A stretch of 63,420 bases of DNA from Okeania sp. KiyG1 (GTDB lineage: Bacteria > Cyanobacteriota > Cyanobacteriia > Cyanobacteriales > Microcoleaceae), in contig NZ_BLZO01000028.1 in assembly GCF_014132355.1 (NCBI RefSeq), positions 1-63,420 on the forward strand, in the 5' to 3' direction. Position numbers and translations under genes: made by a program. Within the stretch, counting starts at the first letter, position 1, and every line of letters starts with the position of its first letter. A model generated the notes under the pieces. It searched no databases, had not been told where the DNA came from, and worked only from the letters and a program-made list of their open reading frames with translations. Below, in pieces: positions 5,516-16,178 of the stretch.

Positions 5516-5738
5516 GTAAGCATTTCCTGCGGAATGCTGCGCAAACAGCGGTCAGCTATCAGCTATTCCTAGGTCATGCTGCGCAAACAGCTTTATTACC
5601 TTTAGTGGACAATTTAAGCTAGTTGTTCTTGTGCTTCAATTCTTTTTTTAAAAATGTAGTAGAAGTTAAGCAAGTGTTTGCTTCATTCATTAAAAAGCTG
5701 AATGCAAGCGCATTCCGCAGGAAGAGCTGAATGCTCAC
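5516..5738. repeat. GTAAGCATT-family MITE, diverged copy
   Basis: The segment starts GTAAGCATTTCCTGCGGAAT and ends AATGCTCAC, an imperfect inverted version of the start. It contains the sub-repeat with CTGCGGAATGCTGCGCAAAC and CAGCTATCAGC tracts shared with other family copies in this window. It lies just upstream of the methyltransferase/nuclease gene start. Confidence 0.65.
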
Positions 5739-12843: not shown

Positions 12844-13179
12844 ATGATAACAGAACAAGACCCCACTAAATTAATGAAACAGCAAGTCGGCAAAGCTGCT
12901 GCTGACCGAGTAAAGTCTGGAATGATAGTGGGGTTAGGCACAGGATCGACCGCTGCCTATATGATTCAGTTTTTGGGGGAACGTCTGCAAAGTGGCCAGC
13001 TCAAAGATATTAAAGGTATCCCTACCTCCTTTCAGTCAAACGTATTAGCTAAACAGCATGGCGTACCATTAACGACCCTCGATGAAGTTGACCACATGGA
13101 TATTGCCATTGATGGTGCTGATGAAGTTGACCCACAGAAAAATCTCATTAAGGGTGGTGGAGCAGCTCATACCCGTGAA
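12844..13179 (+). CDS. rpiA: Ribose-5-phosphate isomerase A, exon 1
   Basis: The first 112 codons of rpiA, the isomerase joining ribose 5-phosphate and ribulose 5-phosphate in the Calvin and pentose phosphate pathways. The family blocks [12 protein letters not shown] (phosphate loop) and [23 protein letters not shown] are present, with the catalytic region GADEVD. The coding sequence stops at GAA (13177-13179), immediately before the group II intron 5' end GTGCGAC. Reading on without splicing ends at TAA 13198-13200, giving a truncated, inactive peptide. Joining to 15801 gives a continuous 237-residue RpiA of normal length. A GGAG ribosome-binding site lies about 10 bp before ATG 12844. Confidence 0.95.
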
Positions 13180-13510
13180 GTGCGACTCGTTGGCCACTAA
13201 ACCAGGAAACTAGGTATAAATGGCCGTTCCAAGTCAACACATGAGGGAAACCTCGACTTGTGAATAACTCTTATATCCTTCGAGGTGAAATTCCTCCGCC
13301 TTGTTGTTGGGTAGAAAGCATAGACCACGGAGTAGAGACTGAACATCAATCTCCGAAGCTGGTTTAAAAGCGGGAAAATACCAGTTACCGAGGAACGATA
13401 CCGCAAGCAAAGGTTGACAAGTGGACGAACAGGAAGGTAATTAAACTCTCGTGATATGAACCATCCCCAAGGTAGCTATGGGATGTAGGACGAAAGTCAG
13501 AGGGTCAATG

Positions 13511-13536
13511 GATAATCTTATTTCGCGGAGATTATC
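13511..13536 (+). ncRNA. Intron domain I hairpin presenting EBS1
   Basis: A perfect 8-bp stem, GATAATCT with AGATTATC, encloses a 10-nt loop ending TTCGCGG (13522-13528). The loop can pair with exon bases CCGTGAA (13173-13179), using one G-U pair. This is the expected geometry of exon-binding site 1. The assignment is by complementarity only. Confidence 0.75.
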
Positions 13537-13770
13537 AGCAACCATGCCGAACCCTCCGGGAGATTTTACCTCACTAAATCAGTCGTAATAAAGGAATAAG
13601 GGAACGAGGAAACCTCTCTAGGACACCTAAGAATATAGGTCGAAATCTTAGGAAGCCATTCAAGGTCAATCTACGCTTTGGACGTAGGTCTTAGGGAGAG
13701 TAGGATTGGGTAAGAAGCTCATTGAGCTGACGTACCCACTGTTAGACGTAATGTAAGGTAATAATTAGCG

Positions 13771-15780
13771 ATGAATAAAGCTAAAACACTAAAAAGACGT
13801 TTAGGAAACCCTAAACCATTTCTTGAGTGCGTCTTACATTCTGAGGAGACCTCAGAATTACGCACTCGCTTTTTAAGCGTGGCATGGGATACAAACGATA
13901 TGCCGTCCCAAGTTAGTGTCAATCCTAATCTCAAATGGAGAGATATTAACTGGAAGAGAGTAGAAAAGTGTGTATTTAAGTTGCAAAAATTAATTTACAG
14001 AGCATCCAGCCGTGGCGAAATCCGCAAGATGCGTAAATACCAAAGACTTCTGACCAAAAGTTACTACGCAAGGTTGCTAGCTGTTAGGCGAGTAACACAG
14101 GATAACCAAGGCAAGAAAACTGCTGGGGTGGATGGAATTAAAAACCTTCCTCCAAGGCAGCGCTTTAACTTGGTTGACCTCCTGAACTCACGTTACCTCA
14201 AAGCAAGTCCTACCCGCCGTGTCTGGATACCAAAACCAGGTAAAAATGAAAAGCGAGTGCTAATTGATGAGGTCTCCTCAGAATGTAAGACGCACTCAAG
14301 ACAACGTCCATTAGGCATCCCTACGATGTACGACCGTGCGTTACAAGCCCTGGTTAAGTTAGGTATGGAACCAGAATGGGAGGCACGTTTTGAGCCTAAT
14401 AGCTATGGTTTTCGGCCAGGACGGTCAACACATGATGCCATAGAGGCAATCCATATAAGCATTAACCATAAACCAAAATATGTGCTTGATGCAGATATAT
14501 CCAAATGTTTTGACCGAATTAACCACGATGCACTTCTAGGAAAGATAGGTCAATCTCCCTACAGACGATTAATTAAACAATGGTTAAAGTCTGGGGCGTT
14601 TGATAATAATCAATTCCTAAAATCTGTGGAAGGTACACCACAGGGAGGGGTAATAGGTCCCCTGCTAGGAAACATCGCCCTGCACGGTATGGAACAATGC
14701 TTAAATAAATTTGCTGAATCTTTACCAGGAAAAAAGCGAGATAATAAAACAGCATTATCCTTAATACGCTATGCTGATGATTTTGTTATCCTACACAAAA
14801 ACATCAAAGTAGTGCTACAAGCAAAAGCCGTGATACAGGAATGGTTAAGTCAAATAGGTTTAGAACTAAAACCAGAAAAAACCAAAATTGCCCACACCTT
14901 GGAAGAATATGAAGGAAATAAACCCGGATTTGACTTCTTAGGATTTACAATTAGGCAATTTAAAGTTAAGTCAACCGAACAAGGATTTAAAACGCTGATT
15001 AAACCATCCTTCAAGAGTATAAAAACTCACTATCGGAAACTGGCGGATATATGTGACAAGCTTAAAACCGCTACCACTAAAGCTTTAATAGCTAAATTAA
15101 ATCCGGTAATTAGGGGATGGGCTAACTACTTCTCAACTGTGGTCAGTAAAGAAATATTCAGTAAAATGAATATGCTTTTACTGAAAAGACTATGGGGATG
15201 GGCAAGTAGAAGGCATCCAAATAAATCTGCTAAATGGGTTAAAGATAAGTATTTCCCCCGCTGCAAAGAAACCAGAAATTGGGTACTTAATGACGGCGAG
15301 TATATACTTAACCTGCACTCAGATGTCCCTATTATTAGACACATAAAAGTGAAAGGTGTTAAATCCCCTTATGACGGCGATTGGACTTATTGGAGTAGCA
15401 GAATCGGTAAACACCCAGGCGTAAGGAAAGAAGTCACAACGCTGTTAAAACGGCAAAAGAATAAATGCGCATTTTGTGGACTAACCTTTAGTCCATCTGA
15501 CCTTATGGAAGTTGACCATATAAAACCAAGGTCTAAAGGTGGTGACAACACATATAAGAATAAACAATTGTTGCACCGACATTGCCACGATACAAAAACT
15601 GCCTTAGATAACAAAACATATCCAAAATCGAAGTCACAGGCTTTACCTGAAGGATATTTATGGGTTGACGATATGTTGGTTCTAAGGCAGGGATGTGCCC
15701 ATGACAAGGGACGTTTAGGAGAGGAGCCGTGTGAGGTGAAAGTCTCACGCACGGTTCTGAAGACGAGTCGGGTAGGGTAA
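13771..15780 (+). CDS. ltrA: Group II intron reverse transcriptase/maturase with HNH endonuclease
   Basis: The 669-residue intron-encoded protein splices and mobilises its intron. The RT domain includes AGVDGIK, RPLGIPTMYDRALQALV, SYGFRPGRSTHDAIEAI and the catalytic RYADDFVIL. A maturase (domain X) region follows, with VIRGWANYF, and a C-terminal HNH nuclease with CAFCG, VDHIKPRSKGGDN and LLHRHCHD. Two peptide insertions are odd. ECVLHSEETSELRT (residues about 19-32) and VLIDEVSSECKTHSRQR (about 165-181) come from inverted copies of a palindromic repeat. The second splits the usual KPGK-EKRPLGIPT motif between RT motifs 1 and 2. The last codons overlap domain V. The frame is open, but activity with the second insertion is uncertain. 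Confidence 0.93.
   Translation: MNKAKTLKRRLGNPKPFLECVLHSEETSELRTRFLSVAWDTNDMPSQVSVNPNLKWRDINWKRVEKCVFKLQKLIYRASSRGEIRKMRKYQRLLTKSYYARLLAVRRVTQDNQGKKTAGVDGIKNLPPRQRFNLVDLLNSRYLKASPTRRVWIPKPGKNEKRVLIDEVSSECKTHSRQRPLGIPTMYDRALQALVKLGMEPEWEARFEPNSYGFRPGRSTHDAIEAIHISINHKPKYVLDADISKCFDRINHDALLGKIGQSPYRRLIKQWLKSGAFDNNQFLKSVEGTPQGGVIGPLLGNIALHGMEQCLNKFAESLPGKKRDNKTALSLIRYADDFVILHKNIKVVLQAKAVIQEWLSQIGLELKPEKTKIAHTLEEYEGNKPGFDFLGFTIRQFKVKSTEQGFKTLIKPSFKSIKTHYRKLADICDKLKTATTKALIAKLNPVIRGWANYFSTVVSKEIFSKMNMLLLKRLWGWASRRHPNKSAKWVKDKYFPRCKETRNWVLNDGEYILNLHSDVPIIRHIKVKGVKSPYDGDWTYWSSRIGKHPGVRKEVTTLLKRQKNKCAFCGLTFSPSDLMEVDHIKPRSKGGDNTYKNKQLLHRHCHDTKTALDNKTYPKSKSQALPEGYLWVDDMLVLRQGCAHDKGRLGEEPCEVKVSRTVLKTSRVG
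13822..13854. repeat. 33-bp inverted repeat, copy A, in the intron ORF
   Basis: This segment is an exact reverse complement of 14268-14300. It starts CTTGAGTGCGTCTTACATTC. With the bases to about 13870 it forms its own hairpin: GAGTGCGT pairs with ACGCACTC and ATTCTGAG with CTCAGAAT. It is read in frame as CVLHSEETSE. Confidence 0.9.
14268..14300. repeat. 33-bp inverted repeat, copy B, in the intron ORF
   Basis: An exact reverse complement of copy A, read in frame as DEVSSECKTHS. It sits inside the conserved KPGK-EKRPLGIPT stretch of the reverse transcriptase, where relatives have no such residues, so it is an insertion of about 51 bp. Confidence 0.9.
15724..15757 (+). ncRNA. Group II intron domain V
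   Basis: The 34-nt hairpin from GAGCCGTGTGAG to CTCACGCACGGTTC has a GTGAAAG-type loop and the AGC triad on its 5' strand. It is the catalytic domain V of group II introns and overlaps the last codons of the maturase ORF. Confidence 0.93.
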
Positions 15781-15800
15781 CTTGCCTGGCTTAGTTTAAC

Positions 15801-16178
15801 AAAATTGTGGACTGTTTGGCAGAACAGTTTATTGTAGTAGTAGATAGTTCTAAATTAGTAGATAGGTTGGGTTCTACTTTTTTGCTCCCGGTAGAAGTTA
15901 TACCGATGGCAGTAAATCCTGTAATTCGGGCAATAGAAAAACTTGGTGGTCAACCAGAACTTCGGATGGGCGTGAAGAAAGCTGGACCTGTAGTTACGGA
16001 CGAGGGTAATCTGGTAATTGATGTTAAGTTTAATTCTATTGATAACCCTGCTGAATTAGAAAAAAGTTTAAATAATATTCCTGGCGTTTTGGAAAATGGT
16101 TTATTTGTAGGGGTTGCGGATGTAATATTAGTGGGAGAAATTCGGGATGGGCAGCCAATAGTTCGAGAAATTGCTTGA
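15801..16178 (+). CDS. rpiA: Ribose-5-phosphate isomerase A, exon 2
   Basis: The last 125 codons of rpiA, starting [20 protein letters not shown]. The conserved C-terminal blocks are present: [35 protein letters not shown] and [20 protein letters not shown]. The first codon AAA (15801-15803) follows the intron 3' end at AC 15799-15800, in phase with exon 1. There is no ribosome-binding site or start here, so expression depends on splicing. The stop is at 16176-16178. Confidence 0.95.

Follow-up and report, generated by a model that had tools for sequence, protein, structure and literature searches.

The window, meaning the whole stretch of 63,420 nt that we analysed, is one contig of the Okeania sp. 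KiyG1 genome (198 contigs, 10,982,302 bp, or 10.98 Mb), which is described as having been assembled from single-amplified genomes (PMC7660993). It carries rpiA split by a group II intron, and two copies of a palindromic repeat, A and B, lie inside the intron's open reading frame (ORF). The features, in window coordinates, are:

12844 to 13179, forward strand: rpiA exon 1 (ribose-5-phosphate isomerase A); joined exons open, PF06026 match
13180 to 15800, forward strand: group II intron, 2621 nt, GTGCGAC...TTTAAC; placed by comparison with intron-less rpiA, the joined frame and an Rfam Intron_gpII match at the 3' end
13771 to 15780, forward strand: intron-encoded reverse transcriptase/maturase/HNH endonuclease ORF, 669 aa, with both insertions inside
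13821 to 13873, forward strand: palindromic repeat copy A, 53-nt unit; net insertion of 51 nt at 13819-13869
14249 to 14301, reverse strand: palindromic repeat copy B, in the opposite orientation; net insertion of 51 nt at 14252-14302
15721 to 15800, forward strand: intron domains V-VI (Rfam RF00029, 60.4 bits, 15722-15800; RF04357 from 15721)
15801 to 16178, forward strand: rpiA exon 2; PF06026 match, joined frame

The intron junctions were set by the intron-less rpiA genes of four genomes (G002, G003, G005 and G026) together with the joined frame; read without the intron, the exons give an open 237-aa RpiA. PF06026 has only two matches in the KiyG1 genome, one on each side of the intron, and this profile search found no second rpiA; an RpiB-type enzyme is represented by a single short partial match, above the family cut-off. 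Among the nine genomes in which rpiA was seen, the site is occupied in five (G000, G001, G004, G017 and G022) and the intron is absent from it in the four that set the junctions; G035 gave no rpiA match. With a domain V/VI and reverse transcriptase (RT), maturase and HNH domains, the intron has the parts of a mobile group II intron. Its ORF matches RVT_N, RVT_1, GIIM and HNH, its closest solved structure is 6me0 chain C (E 4.9e-106), and viral contigs yielded one distant relative of the RT (45%) and no other.

Two inverted repeat copies lie in frame within the intron ORF

The first-pass annotation, made from the sequence of the window, had described two inverted copies of a palindromic repeat in this ORF, and that is what we find: the arms, at 13821-13873 and 14249-14301, are 53 nt long, 375 nt apart and 91% complementary. 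The exact core that it reported is also there, although the longest shared run is 34 nt rather than 33; by simple arithmetic with equal base frequencies, an exact match of that length would be expected about 1e-11 times within 63 kb. Copy A folds alone into a hairpin of -23.6 kcal/mol, in keeping with the hairpin ascribed to it.

Each copy adds 17 residues to the protein. Those from copy A lie near the N-terminus, ahead of RVT_N, and those from copy B interrupt KPGKNEK / RPLGIPT, the RT motif that one copy had been said to split. When aligned to 6AR1, copy B falls between IPK (K69) and RQLGIPT (R75) of the GsI-IIC RT, two residues that presumably contact the incoming nucleotide, and alignment to 6me0 leaves an 18-residue gap at the same site. 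Four of the six frames of the 51-nt unit are open, as read from its sequence, and since 51 nt make 17 codons, the frame is preserved whenever no stop arises.

The insertion sites, read from the empty orthologue described below, are T-rich. Copy A occupies the only place where the empty ORF has five consecutive T, copy B occupies one of its nine runs of five A, and, allowing for orientation, the T-run adjoins the same element end in both copies. Three comparisons of filled and empty sites each give a net gain of 51 nt; a TTT duplication at A is inseparable from the T-run, and no target duplication is clear at B.

The intron of a sister species is empty at both sites

Okeania SIO2C9 (G004) has the same intron at the same position of rpiA. 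Its ORF differs from that of KiyG1 by eight mismatches in 1908 aligned bases (four synonymous and four non-synonymous changes) and by just two indels, both exactly 51 nt long, which correspond to A and B; the SIO2C9 intron is empty at both sites. The nearest mismatches lie at 13724 and 14097 around A and at 14172 and 14413 around B. The proposal that the repeat had twice added a peptide while keeping the frame is thus upheld, and on the time scale of the sister-species intron the two copies are very recent gains here or very recent losses elsewhere. Three further rpiA introns (G001, G017 and G022) are likewise empty at both sites, and because they agree with SIO2C9 in this, the simplest reading is that A and B were gained in the lineage of KiyG1, as was probably the case.

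Between KiyG1 and SIO2C9 there are 30 differences in the 587 nt of the 5' part of the intron and 62 in 1178 nt on the exon-1 side, upstream DNA included. The tract at 13725-15868 is about 99.6% identical between the two species, and the neighbouring DNA is about 5% diverged. Given that the ORF is far more alike than the intron 5' part or the exon-1 side, the comparison suggests a recent exchange of tracts between the two introns. With the shared ORF tract looking recently exchanged, gain rather than loss is a direction that we infer.

Occupancy of the two sites does not follow the intron tree

We compared 51 intron copies from ten genomes, 11 of them from KiyG1 and 40 picked from matches elsewhere. 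Copy A is present in 22, copy B in seven, both in five and neither in 27; some of the 40 were picked because they bear the element, so the 22 of 51 should not be read as an unbiased frequency. The added residues are therefore not common to all related maturases, the first of two findings that would have spoken against an insertion, and comparison with copies that lack the repeat, which had been proposed as a check, revealed clean empty sites at both A and B. Among the introns of KiyG1 itself, A is filled in seven of 11 and B in three of 11, again with clean empty sites in the alignment. Elsewhere, site A is filled in six genomes (G003, G004, G005, G017, G022 and G035) and site B in G004.

A tree of 46 introns, with five short copies left out, requires at least 14 changes at site A for 20 filled introns; shuffled labels gave a mean of 15.2, with 180 of 500 shuffles at 14 or fewer. 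Site B requires six changes for six filled introns, which is the maximum. The distribution of A and B among the introns is out of step with their tree, which has itself probably been scrambled by recombination. That the element recurs at one and the same base is as much a sign of recombination between introns as of transposition. The elements at site A also vary, with variants of the right arm and 75-nt forms that carry another inner stem-loop; in L226, L230 and L233, which have such 75-nt forms, the inner stem-loop resembles another dispersed repeat.

Among filled introns 12 of 24 have a frame of at least 600 aa, and among empty ones 18 of 27, counting those cut by contig ends. Median dN/dS is 0.165 for filled introns (10 of the 12 intact ORFs, 45 pairs) and 0.154 for empty ones (15 of 18, 105 pairs), values that include time before the insertions. 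By this measure, filled and empty intron ORFs appear to evolve alike. Six of the 11 intron ORFs in KiyG1 look broken, perhaps partly through read errors, and three intact ones (L033, L037 and L038) could aid splicing in trans.

The repeat is dispersed in KiyG1 and in other cyanobacteria

A repeat unique to this locus was the second finding that would have spoken against an insertion, and the repeat is instead dispersed through the genome. KiyG1 has at least 47 copies (43 aligned and four further places); the search gave at least 41 places at E<1e-11, with 40 of 98 candidates scored. Ten of the 43 aligned copies are in introns, 19 are flanked by heptamers like ACTTTTG/ACTTCTG and 14 have other flanks, and 28 of the 33 copies outside introns lie outside any ORF of at least 120 aa. 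Within each of three groups (L061-L064; L049 and L057; L039, L048 and L054) the copies have common flanks, which places them inside other, larger repeats. A short hairpin, GCATTCCGCAGGAAATG, recurs near 5519, 30237 and 61045 of the window and is apparently a separate dispersed repeat.

Beyond KiyG1, the repeat has matches in 15 of 59 other genomes, of which G008 is marginal. Among the matches listed, the element pattern occurs in Okeania, Hydrocoleum, Crocosphaera, Cyanothece BG0011, two further cyanobacterial records and a Gracilibacteria metagenome-assembled genome (MAG). One plasmid record, from Gloeothece, has the element; there was no match to it in phages and no exact match to its pattern in viral contigs.

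The element ends in GTCTTGAG and CTCGCT, and its three-base hairpin loop is freely variable. Covariation in the stem amounts to 47 double-change cells, mainly in three stem pairs, against a mean of 12.3 and a maximum of 19 in 300 shuffles; these cells, from 155 ungapped copies of all loci (79 distinct), count sequences rather than events. Rfam gave two matches in the element region, both far below the family cut-offs.

Copies are spanned in frame by other proteins

We scanned 202 records, with 158 distinct copies, for open frames that cross the repeat with at least 40 residues on each side. Eighteen copies are spanned: six intron B copies, one at L043, and 11 in ten loci. The L043 case, a 127-aa open stretch across the repeat, was judged spurious. 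Pfam searches on nine of the ten loci (L179 was left out) identified polyketide synthases (L055, L153 and L186), a sensor kinase (L045), a kinase-GUN4-Macro protein (L159) and TnpB (L151 and L133), and gave no match for L058 and L121. Nine of the 11 in-frame copies outside introns read KRVRNSEVSSECKTHSR or a variant of it; those in L045 and L151 differ.

Empty sites were confirmed by alignment for the intron and for L058, where the orthologous region of G001 has a gap of exactly 51 nt and so makes a filled/empty pair outside introns. The copy in L045 lies within a larger block that is absent from four relatives. At L058, a repeat of about 100 nt (2344-2443) stands beside the element, in frame in the same gene, and has very many matching places, at about 90% identity, in seven related genomes; a 168-nt block holding both the element and this repeat is absent from three relatives.

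A copy on a plasmid of Gloeothece PCC 7822 (L269:2443-2934) lies in frame within a transposase annotated as IS5/IS1182, which is only 163 aa long. The TnpB copy at L133:258-310 is on a contig labelled as a Gracilibacteria MAG, which may reflect transfer or a mis-binned cyanobacterial contig. Two more copies, at L065:1878-1930 and L060:3384-3436, close ORFs of 282 and 501 aa at the 3' end and may encode the C-termini of the products.

Discussion

We consider it likely that A and B belong to a family of short mobile repeats, hairpin-forming and non-autonomous, which Okeania has in common with some other cyanobacteria. Insertion would take place at T-rich sites, often within heptamer repeats, with the orientation fixed and no clear duplication of the target; of the insertions into genes, those that persist would be the ones that leave the frame intact and lie in a loop or linker able to tolerate them. 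Where it lies in a group II intron, the repeat may be carried along with that intron, and may spread from one intron copy to another by recombination or by inserting anew at these sites. The peptides that it adds are most probably neutral passengers.

It is quite possible, though we lean against it, that A and B entered the KiyG1 rpiA intron by gene conversion from introns that were already filled, rather than by fresh insertion. Copy A occupies the identical base in 22 of the 51 selected introns, uncorrelated with the tree; tracts do seem to move, as the contrast between the ORF (8/1908) and the intron 5' part (30/587) or exon-1 side (62/1178) indicates; and a possible donor in the KiyG1 genome, L031, matches the window for 19 nt to the left and 25 nt to the right of A. 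However, the flanks of A are identical to the empty orthologue for 94 nt on the left and more than 220 nt on the right, such that a conversion tract would need to be very short. For B, the inner variant of the window occurs in a solo copy (L039) and, slightly different, in the intron L035, but the flanks are mismatched in both; the flanks of L029 match, but its variant differs. Moreover, the L058 and G001 pair shows that filled and empty states exist outside introns.

Loss is an improbable alternative to the gain of a mobile repeat. Short direct repeats on either side of a hairpin favour its precise deletion, and if the filled state were ancestral, slippage of a polymerase or RT across the hairpin could have excised both copies precisely from the other rpiA introns. 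Copy A, with TTT on both sides, would be suited to this, but copy B is almost without a flanking repeat, and all four of the other rpiA introns examined would have to have become empty at both sites.

We also think it doubtful that the hairpin parasitises the intron RT, moving through an RNA intermediate that group II intron RTs copy, and is for that reason gained again and again at two tolerant sites of their ORF, in both orientations, with turnover faster than intron divergence. The repeat and the RT do not keep strict company: G011 has an RT 84% identical but lacks the repeat, whereas in G009 and G047, which have it, the RTs are only 64% and 60% identical. These mismatches make the link imperfect, and it is also confounded by kinship.

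A function in the intron, with an A:B duplex or the added peptides tuning translation, splicing or RT activity, is very unlikely. The first-pass annotation had suggested that the copies could pair across the intron RNA, and folding does predict this: the region folds far better than shuffled sequences, in a structure that pairs A with B (-205.6 kcal/mol, z -10.3), and B sits between the residues aligned to K69 and R75. Nonetheless, both copies are present in only five of 51 introns and neither in 27, such that the pairing cannot be needed by the ribozyme, and dN/dS is alike in the filled and empty groups. Lastly, an artefact of assembly or amplification hardly merits belief: KiyG1 comes from single-amplified genomes and six of its 11 intron ORFs look broken, but genomes assembled independently also have these sites filled (A in six, B in G004).

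If A and B are indeed copies of a mobile repeat, its closest parallel in way of life is with the palindromic elements of Rickettsia (RPEs), a likeness raised in the first-pass annotation. RPEs, of 105-150 bp, are described as lying in frame in many unrelated protein genes of Rickettsia and also between genes, and an RPE-bearing guanylate kinase is reported to be active (PMC10969869, PMC2229807, PMC3733652). Compared by description, the Okeania repeat is likewise palindromic, in frame in several unrelated proteins and also intergenic. The likeness does not extend to membership, since the Okeania repeat adds 51 nt net (75 nt in its longer form) and its hosts are cyanobacterial.

Among cyanobacterial repeats, the small dispersed repeats (SDRs) of Elhai and colleagues (2008) are said to be short hairpins of 21-27 nt with compensatory changes, within heptamer repeats and minitransposons and in some cases nested. 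The Okeania repeat resembles that description in its hairpin with compensatory changes and its heptamer flanks (19 of 43 copies), and its 75-nt forms suggest nesting, but at 51 nt it is longer. To our knowledge, that account does not include in-frame residence in an intron RT. REP/REPIN sequences with RAYT (IS200-like) transposases are also dispersed short hairpins, mostly outside genes; unlike REP, the Okeania repeat has no GTAG or CGTC at its ends. The Correia and ERIC miniature elements (MITEs) are also described as small and mobile, with open frames that have become fused into proteins (PMC2229807); they are larger and make target duplications, which are not clear for the Okeania repeat. 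Hairpin repeats of 10-100 nt in or near introns are described for Volvox organelles and Podospora mitochondria, and a group II intron RT has been proposed as mover of the ultra-short Podospora element (PMC2670323). The Volvox mitochondrial intron repeats are described there as restricted to non-ORF parts, in contrast to the Okeania repeat, which lies in frame inside the ORF. Among the papers listed by a literature search, which did not extend to the SDR paper or the original RPE paper, none dealt with palindromic repeats lying in frame within the ORF of a bacterial group II intron.

The KiyG1 rpiA intron thus presents one selfish DNA inside another: a hairpin repeat within the RT gene of a self-copying intron, adding peptides to that intron's protein. 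Protein-invading palindromes are not special to Rickettsia, and they can ride in the genes of other mobile elements (a group II intron, TnpB and IS5). The series of filled and empty introns, including the near-identical rpiA pair, makes 17-residue insertions in the finger loop of an RT directly testable.
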